From a virus, in IMG/VR virus record IMGVR_UViG_3300034066_000198, positions 1 through 22,371 of that record: DNA of 22,371 nt. The stretch is one strand, 5' to 3'. Shown one piece after another: positions 1,987 to 16,939 of the stretch (the first letter of the stretch is position 1; every line of letters starts with the position of its first letter). A program made the position numbers and the translations under genes. Below the pieces are notes generated by a model, which worked only from the letters and a program-made list of their open reading frames with translations, ran no database searches and was not told the origin of the DNA.

Positions 1987-2135
1987 TGGTTTGATTCAGG
2001 TTGCATCAGTTCCAACAGGGTCAGCAGGTACGCAGCAAAGGCAACGTGCGTCATGACGGCATGGGTGCCCGGAGGCACCCCATAGCTGTCACGCCACCAC
2101 TCCTCAAAGGCTGCTTTGATGGTGGCTTCGTTCAT
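1983..2135 (-). CDS. 50-residue conserved-looking phage protein
   Basis: A short gene fills the whole gap between ssb and the exported-protein gene. The ATG at 2133-2135 overlaps the ssb stop (TGATG), and its TGA at 1983-1985 overlaps the next ATG (ATGA). Both ends are therefore fixed by coupling, which strongly supports a real gene. It starts MNEATIKAAFEEWWRDSYG, continues VPPGTHAVMTHVAFAAYLL and ends TLLELMQPESNQ. The second half is hydrophobic and helical but interrupted by His and Thr, so a membrane helix is uncertain. Function is unknown. Confidence 0.75.
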   Translation of the reverse strand: MNEATIKAAFEEWWRDSYGVPPGTHAVMTHVAFAAYLLTLLELMQPESNQ

Positions 2136-2479
2136 CAGAAGGTAACCTCCTCAGATTGAGCGCCACGGGGCAGAAACTCAAACCGCTGCACGCTGAAGAC
2201 ATGCTTGCTGCGCTTAGCGGCAGTTTCCTTGTCTGCCCACTCTTGGCGGCGGATGTTGCCGGTCACAAAGATGCTGTCGCCTTTCTTGCAGCGATCAACA
2301 ATTAACTCGGCTGACTTGCCCCAAACCTCAATGTCGATTGCATTGTTGATCCAGTTGCCGTCCTTGTCCTTGCCCTCTTGGATGCCACCTGCAAAGTTGG
2401 CAACCATGGTGCCACTGTCAAAGGTGCGCAGTTGTGGGTCGGTGATGATGCGAATGATGCCGGATGCGTAGAGGCTCAT
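2135..2479 (-). CDS. ssb: single-stranded DNA-binding protein
   Basis: 114 residues with the bacterial SSB oligonucleotide-binding fold: GIIRIITDPQLRTF at the start, VANFAGGIQEGKDKDG in the middle, and IDIEVWGKSAELIVDRCKKGDSIFVTGNIRRQEW later. The flexible tail of bacterial SSB is almost absent; the protein ends SEEVTF, a short acidic tip with terminal Phe that loosely recalls the bacterial partner-binding tip. It coats single-stranded DNA during phage replication and recombination. It lies just downstream of the annealase and RecE-like nuclease genes, the usual partners, and its ATG overlaps the stop of the HTH gene. Confidence 0.9.
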   Translation of the reverse strand: MSLYASGIIRIITDPQLRTFDSGTMVANFAGGIQEGKDKDGNWINNAIDIEVWGKSAELIVDRCKKGDSIFVTGNIRRQEWADKETAAKRSKHVFSVQRFEFLPRGAQSEEVTF

Positions 2480-6292: not shown

Positions 6293-6790
6293 TTAAAAAG
6301 TATCGGAATGCTTAAGTGAATCGATTGGCAGCAACTCTGATTTAGGAACGAAAAAAGCTTTTCTTCCGCCAGCCGGATCCTTGATCCATTTTTTATTCAT
6401 TGCGTCCTTACTGGTAATCCAACCATGGATTAAAGTTTGCCTAGCTTCAATTGTTACCAATACAAGTATCTTAAGAAGGCTTTCGTCAAGCTGACAAATT
6501 AAATCATAATAGTGCTTTGACCTTGTTTTTACGTCTATATTTGGCGGGAGATCACTGCTGCCTCGACGCGGAATTTTTTCTGCGTAAAGATATTCCTGCA
6601 GGCCAAGGTATTTTGCAACCGCAAACTCACCTGCGGCGCCAAGAATATGCATCTGCAAGGCTTTAGCGCCGATATCTGGCCCGCCGTTTCTGCCACTCAC
6701 TCCGTTGGCTTGGTTCTGGTTTTGACGCCTAAGAGCTTCATTGTTTATTGCCTCCCTATCGGCATCGGAAAATTCAATAGAAACAGACAC
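6293..6790 (-). CDS. possible PD-(D/E)XK-like endonuclease, AT-rich
   Basis: 165 residues from a GTG at 6788-6790, preceded by AAGG six bases upstream, one of the few Shine-Dalgarno-like sites in this arm. The middle reads LGAAGEFAVAKYLGL followed by PPNIDVKTRSKHYYDL. A conserved Glu in the first helix and a later D-x-K pair (DVKT) are what a minimal PD-(D/E)XK nuclease core needs, but I cannot name the family. Base composition is strikingly different from both sides: by hand count 6301-6600 is about 40% GC, while nearby stretches such as 5041-5100 reach 65%. It may be a recent acquisition. A structural or DNA-binding role without catalysis remains possible. Confidence 0.6.
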   Translation of the reverse strand: MSVSIEFSDADREAINNEALRRQNQNQANGVSGRNGGPDIGAKALQMHILGAAGEFAVAKYLGLQEYLYAEKIPRRGSSDLPPNIDVKTRSKHYYDLICQLDESLLKILVLVTIEARQTLIHGWITSKDAMNKKWIKDPAGGRKAFFVPKSELLPIDSLKHSDTF

Positions 6791-7005: not shown

Positions 7006-7033
7006 TTGACACCGTAACCTCGGAGGCTACAGT
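7006..7033 (+). promoter_or_regulatory. rightward sigma70-type promoter for the replication block
   Basis: TTGACA (7006-7011), a 16-base spacer, then TACAGT (7028-7033), which matches TATAAT at four of six bases. Predicted start is near 7040, about 17 bases before the ATG at 7057. It overlaps the leftward promoter completely, so polymerase can occupy only one of the two at a time. Confidence 0.55.
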
Positions 7034-7039
7034 TGTCAA
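7011..7039 (-). promoter_or_regulatory. leftward sigma70-type promoter for the left arm
   Basis: On the minus strand TTGACA (7039-7034) is followed by a 17-base spacer and TACGGT (7016-7011). The -35 box is perfect; the -10 box keeps the key T, A and final T. Predicted start of transcription is near 7004, about 16 bases before the ATG at 6988. No other promoter-like site was noticed in the left arm, so this could drive the whole leftward run of genes. Confidence 0.6.
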
Positions 7040-7056
7040 GCACCTCAGCCACGCCC

Positions 7057-7221
7057 ATGCAGCTTTGCCGTCCATTTAGCCTCCGCTTATCCCCAGACCT
7101 GTTGGTATGGCTGGATTCTTGGCGTGCTGACCGCATGTCACGCGGCACTGCCATACGCCTGCTGCTAGAGCAGTCGATGCGCCTGCACCGCGACGGCATC
7201 CTGCCAGCTACTGACCGATGA
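7057..7221 (+). CDS. ribbon-helix-helix DNA-binding protein
   Basis: 54 residues from the ATG at 7057-7059; an upstream TTG at 7033 falls within the promoter and is not chosen. The pattern is RPFSLRLSPDLLVWLDSWRA followed by SRGTAIRLLLEQSMRL: a beta strand and two helices, as in CopG/Arc-type RHH repressors, ending in a short tail. Such proteins bind palindromic operators as dimers or higher oligomers. It is the first gene rightward of the 36-bp palindrome and overlaps the primase-helicase start by ATGA. Autoregulation at the palindrome, and so control of the left/right choice, is a reasonable inference, but no direct evidence exists in the sequence. Confidence 0.75.
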   Translation: MQLCRPFSLRLSPDLLVWLDSWRADRMSRGTAIRLLLEQSMRLHRDGILPATDR

Positions 7222-9581
7222 AGGAAATTGATTTCGACGAGGCCCGTCGGTTTATTGCCCTTCTCGGCAAACCGGCAGGCGCCATCAGGTTGCGCGCATT
7301 CCTCCACGCTGAGCACCCCGACAAGCCAACCGACAAAGGTCGCAAAGGTGGCAGCAGCAAGCGGCTTATCACCGAATGGCAGTCCGAAGGTCGCGGCGTT
7401 TATGTCGTTGTCAACGATGGCGGTGACACCAACGCCGACATCACCACCTGCCGTGCCTTCTTTGCTGAATGGGATGACCGACCCAAGGAATGGCAGCTCA
7501 CCGCATGGCAGGACCTCAAACTGCCAGAGCCGACGATGCAGATCGACACTGGCGGCAAGTCCATCCATAACTATTGGGTACTAGCTGACCCGATCACCCC
7601 AGCCCATTGGGAGCTAGTACAGGCTCGCCTACTCGATTACTGCGATGCCGACCGCAGCATCAAAAATGCTGCCCGCGTCATGCGCCTGCCTGGCACCTAC
7701 CACGCTGGCCCCGATGGCATCCTCGGTGAGCAGTGCCGCATGGTGTCATGCAGTGGCGCCCACTACGCAGTATCTGACATCGAGTCGGTGCTGCCATCTG
7801 AGACGTATTACCAGCACGAGGCGCCCGCCCGCACCTACACCGAGCAGGCCGAGCGCGGCATTGACGACATCCGCGAAGCACTCGCTGCAATACCACCCCG
7901 CCAGCCAGGTACCGGCACCTACCACATCTACCGCAACATCTTTTGGGGCCTCATCCAAGCCTGCGGCAGCCCCGAGCAGGCCATTGCTCTTATGCAGCAG
8001 CACAGTCCGCAATGGCAAGGCCTAGAGCAAATTGCCAGCTCTGGTGGTGACCAGATCACTGCCGGCACCTTCTGGTACTGGGCGCGGCATCACGGCTGGC
8101 GGCCACCAACGCCAACACGCAAGCGGCCCAAGCAAGCCGAACCGACTACCGCTGAAACCATCAACTGCCAGCTCTACAGCAAGACGGACACCGAATGGCT
8201 TGATATGACCGTTCAATACGTCTTTGAGTACCCAGCCGTCCGGTGGATTTGCGTCGATGGCATCCTCCACCGCTGGTGCGGCACCCATTACCAGCCCACA
8301 ACTGATGAGGAACTAGCGCCCAGCATTGCTCGGCTTTTGTCCATGCTGCATGTCGTAGATGGCAAAACCGGCGAGCAATCGCACCCATGGAAGCGCCCTA
8401 AATACGTCGATGAGGCCCTTGCATGGATGCGGCGTTTACTGGAGCCAGTAGCCGTCAACCCAGCCAATGCCATTAACTGCGCCAATGGTGTGGTGTCCTG
8501 GCTATGGAGCGGCAAAAAGCTGGACATCACATTCCAGCCACACACTCAAGAGCAAGCATTTACCTACGTCACCAACTACAACTACGACCCAGAAGCCAAT
8601 GCCCAGCATCTGTGGCGGTTATTGGAAGCCGTGGAACCCAGCGACCGTGACACGCTTCAACGCATCCTTGGCAGTGGCCTTGACCTTTCCAAATACCGCG
8701 CCACACGCGGCAGACCTAGGGCTGTGCTCATGATTGGTGCTGGCTCCAACGGCAAGGACACCATCCGCACCGCATTACGCGACACCCTTGGAAGCCGGAA
8801 TTTCACCTCCTGCACTCTTGCCGACTTCCGCCAATACGACCAAGGCCGCAAATTCCCTATCGCGCCGCTTCGTGGTGCATCCGTTAACTGGTCCAGTGAA
8901 AATAGCCAGTTTGTGCATATTGATAACCTCCAGTCACTGAAGGCTGCAATTAGTGGCGAGGAGCTGTCATATGAGCTGAAAGGTGTACAGGAATCGCAGT
9001 TCGTACCATCTGCGCTTTTTGTATTTAATCTCAACAAGGACCCATCCCTGTCCGGCGACCAAGTTGCTATTGAGACGCGGTTTCATGTCTTCAAGTTCCG
9101 CAAAACTTTTATGGCAACACCTACCGAATCAAGCCATATACAAGCTGACCCACGCCTTAAGGATGACCCATTTTTTATCCAGCAGCAGATATGCCCGGCA
9201 TTCCTTAATTGGTTGCTTGAAGGTATGGCACTCAGCATGGCCGATGGCATTGACTACGCCTCCGGTAGGCAGGCAATGGAAGATGTCCGCCGCGCTAGTT
9301 GTCACCTATGGGAGTTCTGCGATGCCGTTGGATTGACCTACGAAGAAGGTAGCCAGGTGTCAGTTAAACGGGTATGGGATGTCTTACACGCCTGGTACCG
9401 CGAGGAGGGGTACTTAGATGACCGCGACCGTTGGTTGGTGGACCCGCCGGCAGACCGCACCGTTAAGGCGGCTCGGCTTTTGGTGCCGGCATTGCGGCAG
9501 ATCTTCCCCAAACTTGCGTCCGCCAGAACCGGCAAGAGCCGCGACCGGCTTATCACTGGTCTCAAGTTGGACGCATGGTGA
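7218..9581 (+). CDS. primase-helicase (AEP primase plus D5/P4-type helicase)
   Basis: 787 residues. The N-terminal part has archaeo-eukaryotic primase features: FFAEWDD at 81-87 (acidic catalytic pair), GGKSIHNYW at 112-120 (the S-x-H motif) and RVMRLPGTYH at 153-162. The C-terminal part is a superfamily 3-type helicase of the D5/P4-alpha group: Walker A GAGSNGKDT at 507-515 with Lys513, a SENS segment near 560-563 in the Walker B area, and FVFNLNKDP at 601-609 as the sensor motif. The Walker B stretch lacks the usual Asp, with Glu561 the only acidic residue there. Residues about 690-787 look like the winged-helix tail seen in this group. In phage P4 the related protein also recognises the origin. 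The repeat array directly downstream makes the same role plausible here. Confidence 0.88.
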   Translation: MKEIDFDEARRFIALLGKPAGAIRLRAFLHAEHPDKPTDKGRKGGSSKRLITEWQSEGRGVYVVVNDGGDTNADITTCRAFFAEWDDRPKEWQLTAWQDLKLPEPTMQIDTGGKSIHNYWVLADPITPAHWELVQARLLDYCDADRSIKNAARVMRLPGTYHAGPDGILGEQCRMVSCSGAHYAVSDIESVLPSETYYQHEAPARTYTEQAERGIDDIREALAAIPPRQPGTGTYHIYRNIFWGLIQACGSPEQAIALMQQHSPQWQGLEQIASSGGDQITAGTFWYWARHHGWRPPTPTRKRPKQAEPTTAETINCQLYSKTDTEWLDMTVQYVFEYPAVRWICVDGILHRWCGTHYQPTTDEELAPSIARLLSMLHVVDGKTGEQSHPWKRPKYVDEALAWMRRLLEPVAVNPANAINCANGVVSWLWSGKKLDITFQPHTQEQAFTYVTNYNYDPEANAQHLWRLLEAVEPSDRDTLQRILGSGLDLSKYRATRGRPRAVLMIGAGSNGKDTIRTALRDTLGSRNFTSCTLADFRQYDQGRKFPIAPLRGASVNWSSENSQFVHIDNLQSLKAAISGEELSYELKGVQESQFVPSALFVFNLNKDPSLSGDQVAIETRFHVFKFRKTFMATPTESSHIQADPRLKDDPFFIQQQICPAFLNWLLEGMALSMADGIDYASGRQAMEDVRRASCHLWEFCDAVGLTYEEGSQVSVKRVWDVLHAWYREEGYLDDRDRWLVDPPADRTVKAARLLVPALRQIFPKLASARTGKSRDRLITGLKLDAW

Positions 9582-9879
9582 CGCAGTTGGCGGACGCAAC
9601 TTGCGTCCGCTACCACCCTTGGCGGACGCAAAGGCGGACGCAAAACCCCTTGCTATTACTCTCTTTTCTTTAGGCGGACGCAAATAGGGGTATATAAACG
9701 CCTATAGAAAAAAGAATGGTTATGTAACGGGGTGAACATTATGTAAACTATAGGGGGGAGTAGGAGAAGGCCGATTTTGCGTCCGCCTAGTGTTTGCAAG
9801 GCTTTTGGCGTCCGCCTAAGTGCAATTTGCGTCCGCCTTCGCTGAAAACCCAGTCATAGCCTCAATTTTTGCGTCCGCC
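9514..9879. repeat. inverted iteron array around an AT-rich core; probable replication origin
   Basis: An 11-bp repeat, GGCGGACGCAA, occurs four times in forward orientation at 9589-9599, 9621-9631, 9633-9643 and 9673-9683. It occurs in reverse (TTGCGTCCGCC) at 9777-9787, 9827-9837 and 9869-9879, plus one copy with a single mismatch at 9806-9816. Two further reverse copies lie at 9601-9611 (10 of 11 bases) and, perfect, at 9514-9524 inside the primase-helicase gene. The two sides point at each other across 9684-9776; by hand count 9691-9750 is 30% GC and contains TATATAAAC, CTATAG (twice) and TATGTAA (twice). The gap between genes, 9582-9884, is 303 bp and holds no coding sequence. Known iteron origins have this design. 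Partition site or operator are alternatives. Confidence 0.75.
9590..9610. repeat. 21-bp perfect palindrome made of two facing iterons
   Basis: GCGGACGCAA at 9590-9599 and TTGCGTCCGC at 9601-9610 are exact reverse complements with one C between them. This is the only closely abutting inverted pair in the array, and it lies 8 bp after the primase-helicase stop. The single-base loop makes a stable RNA hairpin with ten paired bases unlikely without opening the centre, and no T-run follows, so a terminator is not supported. A high-affinity dimer site is more likely. Confidence 0.7.
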
Positions 9880-9884
9880 TTCCC

Positions 9885-10169
9885 ATGCAAGAGATCAAAG
9901 TCCGTTTTCAGCCGTCAGACATCGCCGCCTTGGACCAGCAGGTGGCCACCGCTGGCACCACCAGAGCGCAGCTCATCCGTGACAGAGCGTTAAGCCTCCC
10001 TGTTGCACGGTTGACCACGGTGGATTACCATGCGCTGGTGGCTGATGCTGTTGCCGCTACTCGTGGTGACCTGCCTCGCCTTCAGGTGGAATATCTCGTT
10101 GCTTATGTCATCACCAAACTTGATCAACATTCCCGCCAAGCAGTCGCCGGTGATCAACCGACTCCATGA
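9885..10169 (+). CDS. ribbon-helix-helix protein next to the repeat array
   Basis: 94 residues. The N-terminus MQEIKVRFQPSDIAALDQQV followed by TTRAQLIRDRALSL is a beta strand plus two helices, as in RHH proteins of the CopG/MobC kind. The remainder (DYHALVADAVAATRG, VEYLVAYVITKLDQ) is helical and could be an oligomerisation region. The ATG lies only five bases after the last iteron (9869-9879), so a protein bound there would block ribosome loading or transcription into this gene. That arrangement is typical of autoregulated DNA-binding proteins encoded beside their own site, as in plasmid partition or copy-control systems. Binding to the repeats is an inference. Confidence 0.75.
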   Translation: MQEIKVRFQPSDIAALDQQVATAGTTRAQLIRDRALSLPVARLTTVDYHALVADAVAATRGDLPRLQVEYLVAYVITKLDQHSRQAVAGDQPTP

Positions 10170-10173
10170 CTGC

Positions 10174-10323
10174 ATGACGCAAGCGCTGGCATATGCCGCC
10201 GCCATCCGCGACAACGCACAAGATGACGGCGTGCCCATCCCCGTGGAACTCGTCGCCAGCTTTGAAGACGATTACAACAACATCATCGCCGCACTCCATG
10301 AAGCTCATCACCTCGCAGGTTGA
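10174..10323 (+). CDS. small helical protein upstream of the clamp
   Basis: 49 residues from the ATG at 10174, four bases after the RHH stop. An alternative ATG at 10105 in the same frame would give 72 residues and overlap the RHH gene by 65 bp; an AGGTGG lies upstream of it, but about 15 bases away. The sequence is helical and moderately acidic (TQALAYAAAIRDNAQDDG, VPIPVELVASFEDDYNN, IIAALHEAHHLAG). Its end overlaps the clamp gene by 26 bp, suggesting coupled translation. I recognise no family and cannot assign a function. Confidence 0.5.
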   Translation: MTQALAYAAAIRDNAQDDGVPIPVELVASFEDDYNNIIAALHEAHHLAG

Positions 10324-11338
10324 CCTCGACCACGCGCTACGGACCATCGCACCAGCCGTTGGCATCCGCAGCTCGCATCCGATCCTTGACTGCTGCCTCA
10401 TCACCGCTGCTCGTGGCACTGCCACCATCACCGGCTTCAACCTTGACCTCGGCATCACCGTCACCATCACAGCCGCAGTCGATACCGCTGGATCCGTTGC
10501 ATTGCCGTATCGGCTCCTAGCTGGCCTTGTAAGCCGCATGGACGATGGCGAGCCTGTGACCATCGCAGACGGCGCTGTGAGCGCCTCTGGGGCGTCCTAT
10601 GGCCTTGCTGCGTGTGATTCAGCCGATTACCCGGCAATGCCTGCTGTAGAGGCTCCTAGCGCTGACCTAGACATCACCGCTGGCGTGCGTGCCTGTCTCA
10701 TGGCCGCCAGCACCGACGCATCCAAGCAGGTGCTACAGGGCATCCACCTCGCCAACGGCTACATGGAGGCCACCGACGGTCATCGCCTCATCCGCCTTGC
10801 AGTGGACCTGCCCGATGGCGTTAACCTCACCCTGCCAGCCAGCACCATGAAGCTGCTGCAAGACCGCACCGTGGGCATCGCAGCCGCCAATGGTCAAGCG
10901 GTCATCGATGCCGGCGATGGCATCACCATCTACAGCCGCATCCTTGACGGCGCATACCCCGACGTGGCAAAGCTCATCCCCACTACCTTTGAGCACGTCA
11001 TCACCCTGGACCGTCATCGTTTCGCACGCTGCCTAGAGCGCGTCGCGCTCATTGCCGAGGCGCATAACTCAGTCGTCAAGCTCACCGCCACACCCGGCAG
11101 CCTTACCATCACCGCCGAAGCTGATGCCAGCAATGGCAAGGAACTCATCACCTACACCGGCACCGCATCTGGCGCCTGGGCATTCAATGTCCACTACCTC
11201 CTAGATGGCCTCAAGGCATTCCGCTCTGCAGAATCCGTTACACTGTCAGCAAATGGCCCCACGACTCCTGTAGTCTTGACGCCATCTAATGCATCAGATC
11301 AGACTTACCTGATAATGCCTGTGCAAATTCGTAACTGA
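10298..11338 (+). CDS. dnaN: DNA polymerase III beta subunit (sliding clamp), cyanobacterial type
   Basis: 346 residues from the ATG at 10298, slightly shorter than typical bacterial clamps (360-380). Family features: MKLITSQVDLDHALRTIAPAV at the N-terminus with RSSHPILD next, FNLDLGI, GSVALPYRLLAGLVSRM in the first domain, ADYPAMP in the linker, KQVLQGIHL with ATDGHRLIRLAVD in the second, and a C-terminus reading YLIMPVQIRN. The N-terminal SQ-x-DL...AV pattern and the PVQIR ending recall cyanobacterial DnaN from memory; no comparison was run. The clamp tethers DNA polymerase to the template. No polymerase is encoded in the window, so it may serve the host enzyme or a phage polymerase elsewhere. 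Upstream readings of this frame run antisense-like through other genes and are rejected. Confidence 0.88.
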   Translation: MKLITSQVDLDHALRTIAPAVGIRSSHPILDCCLITAARGTATITGFNLDLGITVTITAAVDTAGSVALPYRLLAGLVSRMDDGEPVTIADGAVSASGASYGLAACDSADYPAMPAVEAPSADLDITAGVRACLMAASTDASKQVLQGIHLANGYMEATDGHRLIRLAVDLPDGVNLTLPASTMKLLQDRTVGIAAANGQAVIDAGDGITIYSRILDGAYPDVAKLIPTTFEHVITLDRHRFARCLERVALIAEAHNSVVKLTATPGSLTITAEADASNGKELITYTGTASGAWAFNVHYLLDGLKAFRSAESVTLSANGPTTPVVLTPSNASDQTYLIMPVQIRN

Positions 11339-16529: not shown

Positions 16530-16690
16530 TGGCTAAGAAACCTGGCCTCTACGCCAACATCGCAGCCAAGCGCAAGCGCATTGAAGCTGGCAGCAACGAG
16601 CGCATGGCACGCAAGGGTGAAGCAGGTCGCCCTACTGCTGCTGCATTTAAGGCTGCGGCTAAGACTGCCAAGAAACCCAAGCGCAAGTGA
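16529..16690 (+). CDS. small basic conserved phage protein
   Basis: 53 residues from the ATG at 16529, coupled to the previous stop (TGATG). The sequence KKPGLYANIAAKRKRIEAGS, then NERMARKGEAGRPTAAAFKA and a Lys-rich end, follows a pattern I associate with short basic proteins found in many phage head regions. Roughly a third of the residues are Lys or Arg. The function is not known to me; DNA or scaffold contact is possible. Its stop codon abuts exactly the stop of the leftward gene 16691-16888. Confidence 0.7.
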   Translation: MAKKPGLYANIAAKRKRIEAGSNERMARKGEAGRPTAAAFKAAAKTAKKPKRK

Positions 16691-16888
16691 TTACCTAACA
16701 CGCTCCTGCGCGTGGATCCAGGTCTTTAGTTCAGAGATATACCACCGCAAGTCTTGTGCTTTGGCAGCGTGCCAGCCATTATCAGTTTTGCGGTACAGCT
16801 CCTCATGGCGATCAATTGCATCAAGGCATTGCTTGATCAGTTGATTCCATGGTTGACGAACTGGGGTGTCCCACTCACGCTTTGACAC
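16691..16888 (-). CDS. leftward small helical protein inside the head cluster
   Basis: 65 residues from a GTG at 16886-16888; no ATG is available near the N-terminus. The sequence is convincingly protein-like and helical: PWNQLIKQCLDAIDRHEELY, then DNGWHAAKAQDLRWYISELK and TWIHAQERVR. The opposite strand over the same interval offers only an unnatural Ser/Cys-rich reading. It is the only leftward gene among the late genes and ends base-to-base against the rightward gene on its left. No Shine-Dalgarno sequence or clear own promoter was found. The start codon overlaps the rightward promoter at 16882-16910. Function is unknown. Confidence 0.6.
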   Translation of the reverse strand: MSKREWDTPVRQPWNQLIKQCLDAIDRHEELYRKTDNGWHAAKAQDLRWYISELKTWIHAQERVR

Positions 16889-16910
16889 AATCGTGCCGCG
16901 CCATTACGAT
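16882..16910 (+). promoter_or_regulatory. sigma70-type promoter for scaffold and capsid genes
   Basis: TTGACA (16882-16887), a 17-base spacer and TACGAT (16905-16910). The -35 box is perfect and the -10 matches TATAAT in four positions. Transcription would start near 16917, about 23 bases before the scaffold ATG at 16940. It resembles the leftward promoter at 7011-7039 (TACGGT). It lies in one of the few non-coding stretches of the head region. Confidence 0.65.
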
Positions 16911-16939
16911 GACAGCGTAATTAAGCCTGCGGCTTATCC

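Follow-up and report, generated by a model that had tools for sequence, protein, structure and literature searches.

A probable replication origin of SaPI/PICI-like build downstream of the primase-helicase gene of a cyanophage-like virus

Genes and repeats at the locus

The window, i.e. the whole 22,371-base stretch of viral DNA that was analysed, contains a primase-helicase gene followed directly by an array of short repeats (iterons) in both orientations. To the left of this locus lie genes for a single-strand DNA-binding protein (SSB), RecT, an exonuclease and a helicase, and to the right genes for terminase, portal, scaffold, major head and tail proteins. At the DNA level the nearest isolates are the Synechococcus phages S-H1 and KBS-S-2A, with the similarity running through the structural genes. 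Judging from this phage similarity, the window appears to derive from a virus of photosynthetic bacteria. The features discussed below are the following:

2135..2479, minus strand: SSB (Pfam SSB, E 5.7e-15)
7033..7221, plus strand: upstream small RHH-like gene, 62 aa (phrog_4738, transcriptional repressor)
7218..9581, plus strand: primase-helicase, proposed initiator (Pfam D5_N/DUF5906; matches to PDB 6zp9 and 7ola)
9438..9578, plus strand: C-terminus of the primase-helicase (residues 741-787), a proposed winged helix that would read the repeats (co-variation and AF2)
9514..9524, minus strand: iteron inside the primase-helicase gene, exact copy, which also encodes residues 766-769 (LASA)
9589..9599, plus strand: left-arm iteron, exact copy, left half of a near-perfect palindrome
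9601..9611, minus strand: reverse copy AGCGGACGCAA, one mismatch, right half of the palindrome
9621..9631, plus strand: left-arm iteron, exact copy
9633..9643, plus strand: left-arm iteron, exact copy
9647..9660, plus strand: second conserved motif CCCTTGCTATTACT, within the window found in the array only; a similar motif occurs in relatives
9673..9683, plus strand: innermost left-arm iteron, exact copy
9684..9776, no strand: central core, 93 bp, 40% GC, proposed melting site (position of the least stable DNA in relatives, and GC content)
9777..9787, minus strand: innermost right-arm iteron, exact copy
9789..9802, minus strand: second conserved motif on the opposite strand, GCCTTGCAAACACT (motif search in the window and relatives)
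9806..9816, minus strand: right-arm iteron GGCGGACGCCA, one mismatch
9827..9837, minus strand: right-arm iteron, exact copy
9869..9879, minus strand: outermost right-arm iteron, exact copy
9885..10169, plus strand: downstream NikA-like RHH gene (Pfam NikA-like, E 4e-5, narrowly missing the curated cut-off)
10298..11338, plus strand: DNA polymerase III sliding clamp, DnaN (Pfam DNA_pol3_beta domains 1-3)

The primase-helicase comprises, in this order, an N-terminal archaeo-eukaryotic primase (PrimPol), D5_N, a DUF5906 AAA+ helicase, and a C-terminal tail; residues 7-192 match PDB 6zp9, 'PrimPol AEP domain' (E 1.5e-29), and residues 450-589 match the primase 7ola (E 1.3e-4). The upstream RHH-like gene is a probable regulator of the initiator operon, and the DnaN clamp and SSB are likely partners at the replication fork. 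No DNA polymerase was found among the checked proteins of the 22-kb fragment, nor is one present in the S-H1 annotation, and this combination of a phage clamp and SSB with no DNA polymerase in sight suggests the use of host polymerase III.

Ten copies of GGCGGACGCAA are present at 9514-9879, eight of them exact and two with one mismatch, and there is none with up to one mismatch outside this interval in all 22,371 bases. As described in the first-pass annotation of this DNA, four copies face four reverse ones (one of them, at 9806, with a mismatch) across a 93-bp centre; the two extra reverse copies reported at 9514 and 9601 are also there, although the mismatch in the latter had gone unmentioned. 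Apart from the in-gene copy at 9514, the array fills the intergenic gap of 303 bp (9582-9884). The copies at 9589 and 9601 form the near-perfect palindrome GGCGGACGCAAcTTGCGTCCGCT, a type of pair that is retained in many relatives. The dyad falls at about 9730, with repeat distances roughly mirrored on its two sides, and the segment 9691-9750, for which 30% GC had been counted by hand, has exactly this value and ties with 6449-6483 as the lowest 60-mer of the window. Chance repeats were ruled out by dinucleotide shuffles of the same 401 bp (9500-9900): the top 11-mer count is 8 in the real sequence and at most 2 in 2,000 shuffles. A search of Rfam returned no known RNA element at the array. 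Cumulative GC skew, recommended earlier as a means of locating the origin, was uninformative: there is no consistent extremum at the array in the window, in seven contigs or in S-H1, and the skew appears to track gene direction.

Several other observations concern the layout of the window. The iteron at 9514-9524, which lies within the gene of its own proposed reader, is kept in CGGACGCAA-type clades. In many relatives the second motif, (AAAC)CCCTTGC-A--ACTAGG, likewise stands among the iterons, and it can be recognized by eye in S-H1. A stretch of about 410 bp at 16530-16939 is without an obvious plus-strand gene and holds a minus-strand ORF of 65 aa (16691-16888).

Conservation of the array and its candidate reader

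A primase-helicase search yielded 80 virus loci, 77 of them with readable 3' DNA, and the array follows the primase-helicase gene at the same place in 77/77 of the latter; a look for the repeat beside this gene in relatives had been proposed earlier. The array is kept in the relatives that keep the initiator; its loss from relatives that retain the flanking genes, and an even spread of the repeat through the genome, had both been named as arguments against an origin, and neither is seen. In contigs of 38-56 kb each phage has the array at a single site. In ten contigs of 38-46 kb that carry the word, all or nearly all CGGACGCAA sites lie inside the single array, and contigs carrying other words have at most one stray CGGACGCAA site each. 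When the viral collection was scanned with the DNA word as the sole query, the same family came to light: among the matches listed, every two-sided cluster adjoins this initiator gene or a contig-end remnant of it, and none is an initiator-less satellite with the same array. Two further loci lack an initiator within the sequence covered, namely L446, with direct repeats alone, and L470, with just a right arm at the end of its contig.

The repeat word varies by clade and is common to the copies inside one genome (GGCGGACGCAA, TCGGACGCAA, TGCGGACGCAA and CGAAGGCAA, with CGGAGGCAA, GAAGGCAA and CGGACCCAA in loci that are less closely related), i.e. the layout is constant while the word changes in concert, e.g. 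from CGGACGCAA to CGAAGGCAA, CGGAGGCAA and CGGACCCAA. The most distant loci (L153-L155) have a degenerate array with 4-6 recognisable copies. Layout statistics for 29 non-redundant loci reveal that 119/121 copies right of the core point left and 134/180 copies left of it point right; most of the exceptions are accounted for by the in-gene copy and the partner in the palindrome. In the same loci the distances between repeats on one strand show a phase of about 10.5 bp (vector length 0.74). The core contains the least stable 50-mer in 27/29 cases, and mean GC is 0.43 in the core vs 0.53-0.55 in the arms.

In order to relate the word to the protein, we used partial Mantel correlations for 32 non-redundant proteins in windows of 41 residues, with permutation p-values that retain some shared ancestry. 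The word tracks residues 741-787 of the primase-helicase most strongly (r=0.57-0.60). Inflation of this correlation by the in-gene repeat was controlled by dropping residues 765-770, after which r=0.57 and p<0.001 at 741-787, a p-value not fully free of shared ancestry; the other 41-residue windows have a mean r of 0.0 (sd 0.14), the best of them reaching 0.40 at 621-661. Four natural chimaeras (L218, L332, L333 and L341) possess an N-terminus that matches the window primase at 53-57%, and a C-terminal half that matches S-H1 at 40-43% and has no match to that of the window. Their words are S-H1-like, namely ACCGTTACA, and AGCGTCACA in L333, next to ACCGTTAGG in S-H1 itself, and not GGACGCAA; thus, the word follows the C-terminal half.

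S-H1 (MK105819) provides a complementary comparison. It has the same flanking genes as the window, i.e. RHH, RHH and clamp, both RHH families being 42% identical to those of the window and the clamp 44% (in the alignment the S-H1 clamp begins opposite residue 36 of the 10193 ORF), and its repeat array occupies the same place and is mostly mirror-arranged. It differs in having a zinc-ribbon/TOPRIM primase with an unrelated helicase, and in its word, ACCGTTAGG. The RHH protein encoded at 9885 had been put forward as a candidate binder of the array; this suggestion did not hold, as the gene is not detected in 5/5 TGCGGACGCAA loci, in eight or more TCGGACGCAA loci and in the majority of distant loci, all of which keep the array. 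The upstream RHH is likewise of unrelated types or not detected in relatives with the array kept, so that, as judged from gene content, both neighbouring RHH genes are dispensable for it. The locus survey, together with S-H1, in which the RHH families are kept and the word is changed, rules out an RHH protein as the reader of the array.

For the C-terminal half, AF2 gave a model with confidence limited to the end (pLDDT about 70-90), where it predicts the order helix-helix-strand-helix, helix, two strands; the full-length model was discarded (pLDDT 49). This predicted arrangement suggests a resemblance to a winged helix, with a proposed recognition helix at about 752-760 and a proposed wing at about 767-784. 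A Foldseek search with the C-terminal half returned largely winged helices, none of them significant. Taken together, the array appears to be best explained as being read by the winged-helix-like C-terminal end of the primase-helicase.

Proposed function and comparison with known origins

We consider it highly probable that the array is a replication origin of SaPI/PICI-like build, bound by the winged-helix-like C-terminus of the upstream primase-helicase. The earlier reading of the region as a probable origin beside its initiator thereby gains strong support from sequence comparison, in which the array is conserved and confined and its word follows the initiator C-terminus.

The comparison with SaPI/PICI origins is based on satellites from Staphylococcus, E. 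coli and streptococci (PMC6092414, PMC7581432). In these, two iteron sets flank an AT-rich region 3' of pri-rep (PMC6092414), the iterons are recognised by the C-terminal domain of SaPI Rep, which binds them apparently as two hexamers, and SaPI5 Rep is described as Primase_Cterm/D5_N type (PMC7581432). The window resembles them in all of the following: its array (9589-9879) lies directly 3' of the initiator gene, which ends at 9581; two iteron sets surround an AT-rich region, here and in relatives; the iteron word is probably specific to the initiator, as suggested here by co-variation with the C-terminus and by the natural chimaeras; and the window helicase is of the same Primase_Cterm/D5_N type as SaPI5 Rep. 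Origins of this type are further characterized by an initiator that unwinds DNA and by autonomous replication in its presence. C-terminal recognition of the iterons, reported for SaPI Rep, is predicted for the window protein from the co-variation and the winged-helix-like model. As a positive control, Javan437, a Streptococcus satellite, was analysed likewise and revealed the same two-sided array. The differences are that the window primase is fused to the helicase, that one iteron is embedded in coding sequence and a second motif is interleaved, and that the window belongs to a full-size tailed phage and not to a satellite. A PICI is a small satellite with a helper-dependent virion, whereas the window encodes its own terminase, portal, scaffold, major head and tail proteins; its layout would therefore represent a SaPI/PICI-type origin carried by a non-PICI phage. 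A 2018 paper states that this layout occurs in no other known bacterial replicon. The first-pass annotation knew of no two-sided inverted layout described in a cyanophage-like genome, and we found no report for cyanophages in the open-access literature; the layout as such is known from SaPI/PICI origins (PMC6092414).

From the DNA architecture and the co-variation observed in the window and its relatives, we infer a course of events that begins with iteron binding and loading of the rings and leads through melting and priming to replication in both directions. The primase-helicase would seat on both arms via its C-terminal end; as the arms face each other, two helicase rings in opposite orientation would face one another, one on each side of the core. 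The AAA+ part would open the AT-rich core, the N-terminal primase would lay down primers, and host polymerase with the phage sliding clamp and SSB would elongate outward in both directions. The mirror arms are compatible with such two-way initiation.

RHH genes flank the locus, and two other interpretations can be considered. RHH proteins bind short repeats, and the array, with its interleaved second motif, is situated upstream of the RHH-clamp-terminase gene run, so that it might be an operator or promoter at which the primase-helicase or an RHH protein controls the clamp and the late genes. We regard this as improbable, because no sigma-70-like promoter was found in the region (those of cyanophages may be different), the downstream RHH is undetected in array-bearing loci (5/5 with TGCGGACGCAA and at least eight with TCGGACGCAA) and the upstream one is replaceable, and the word follows the initiator C-terminus instead; the array could nevertheless act as a regulator in addition to its proposed role as an origin. 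Repeat arrays are also bound by RHH-type partition proteins in some plasmids, but a centromere-like partition site with an RHH protein as its binder is very improbable here: there is no ParA-like ATPase among the window proteins checked, both RHH genes are missing or replaced in array-bearing relatives, and S-H1 retains both RHH families yet has different repeats.

Classical iteron plasmid origins (RK2/pSC101) have iterons in one orientation and a Rep without primase and helicase, whereas the arms in the window face each other and the proposed initiator is a primase-helicase. The alpha protein of phage P4 is described in PMC4234260 as combining primase, helicase and C-terminal winged-helix repeat binding in one protein, as proposed for the window protein; alpha has a bacterial (TOPRIM) primase, and the window primase is of the AEP/PrimPol type. 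The gene order of pRN1, namely a small RHH-type regulator (orf56), an AEP-SF3 protein (orf904) and a 3' origin, is identical to that of the window, and in pRN1, too, primase and SF3-type helicase are united in one protein and the required element is located just 3' of its gene (PMC4234260). Its authors, who suggest bidirectional forks, describe a 100-nt stem-loop and no iterons (PMC4234260); the window has about ten iterons, and its strand can fold. By analogy, the working element could be a cruciform or stem-loop origin in which the repeats matter only through pairing, and a single strand of the window indeed folds far better than shuffles (z -7.7). We find this interpretation improbable as well, as a strong fold is expected from any inverted repeats, and a stem-loop could do without about ten copies of a single word, without 10.5 bp phasing with variable spacers and without a copy of the word inside the gene.

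Distribution of the design

Two-sided arrays next to primase genes extend beyond close relatives of the window. Relatives of the S-H1 primase have arrays too, mostly mirror-arranged and with drifting words, and four loci from picocyanobacterial genomes (L219-L221 and L226) share the N-terminal primase, possess an AAA_25 or DUF3987 helicase and have two-sided arrays. A full-size cyanophage family with such arrays, together with arrays 3' of primases with other helicases, would make this a general phage origin design, and candidate origins are gained for many uncultured picocyanobacterial phages and for the isolate S-H1. No array was found just 3' of the S-2L PrimPol, nor just 3' of D5- or S-H1-type primases in phages of Arthrobacter, Streptomyces, Microbacterium, Vibrio, Morganella, Lactobacillus, Bordetella and Pseudomonas, and TM4 and the Enterococcus phage Vaquero are borderline. 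As several isolates with D5-type or S-H1-type primases have no array just 3' of the gene, an array in this position is not universal for these enzymes.

The related words and the domain-swap chimaeras constitute a natural specificity series, which makes origin reading by the initiator directly testable. One can speculate that cyanophages exchange initiator C-terminal halves and matching two-sided origins as cassettes, with the word drifting in concert under selection, although we hold this for rather less than likely; an equally tentative example of a selection pressure would be the denial of the initiator to co-infecting phages or satellites. If the cassette exchange were real, initiator-origin specificity would serve phage populations as a fast-evolving identity code.

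Some additional loci broaden the range of primases and arrays. In Synechococcus and Cyanobium genomes (L219-L221) the arrays downstream of the primase gene are CAAAGAATC-like and are possibly origins of prophages or satellites. The N-terminal PrimPol-type primase is fused to at least five helicase types, namely D5/DUF5906, S-H1-like AAA, AAA_25, DUF3987 and VapE-like (this variety is seen in L218, L220, L226, L332-L341 and S-2L, L216). Finally, AGCCCACAC is the word of a mirror-like array in L348 and L349, which lies at a distance of about 60-330 bp 3' of a primase gene with a different C-terminus.
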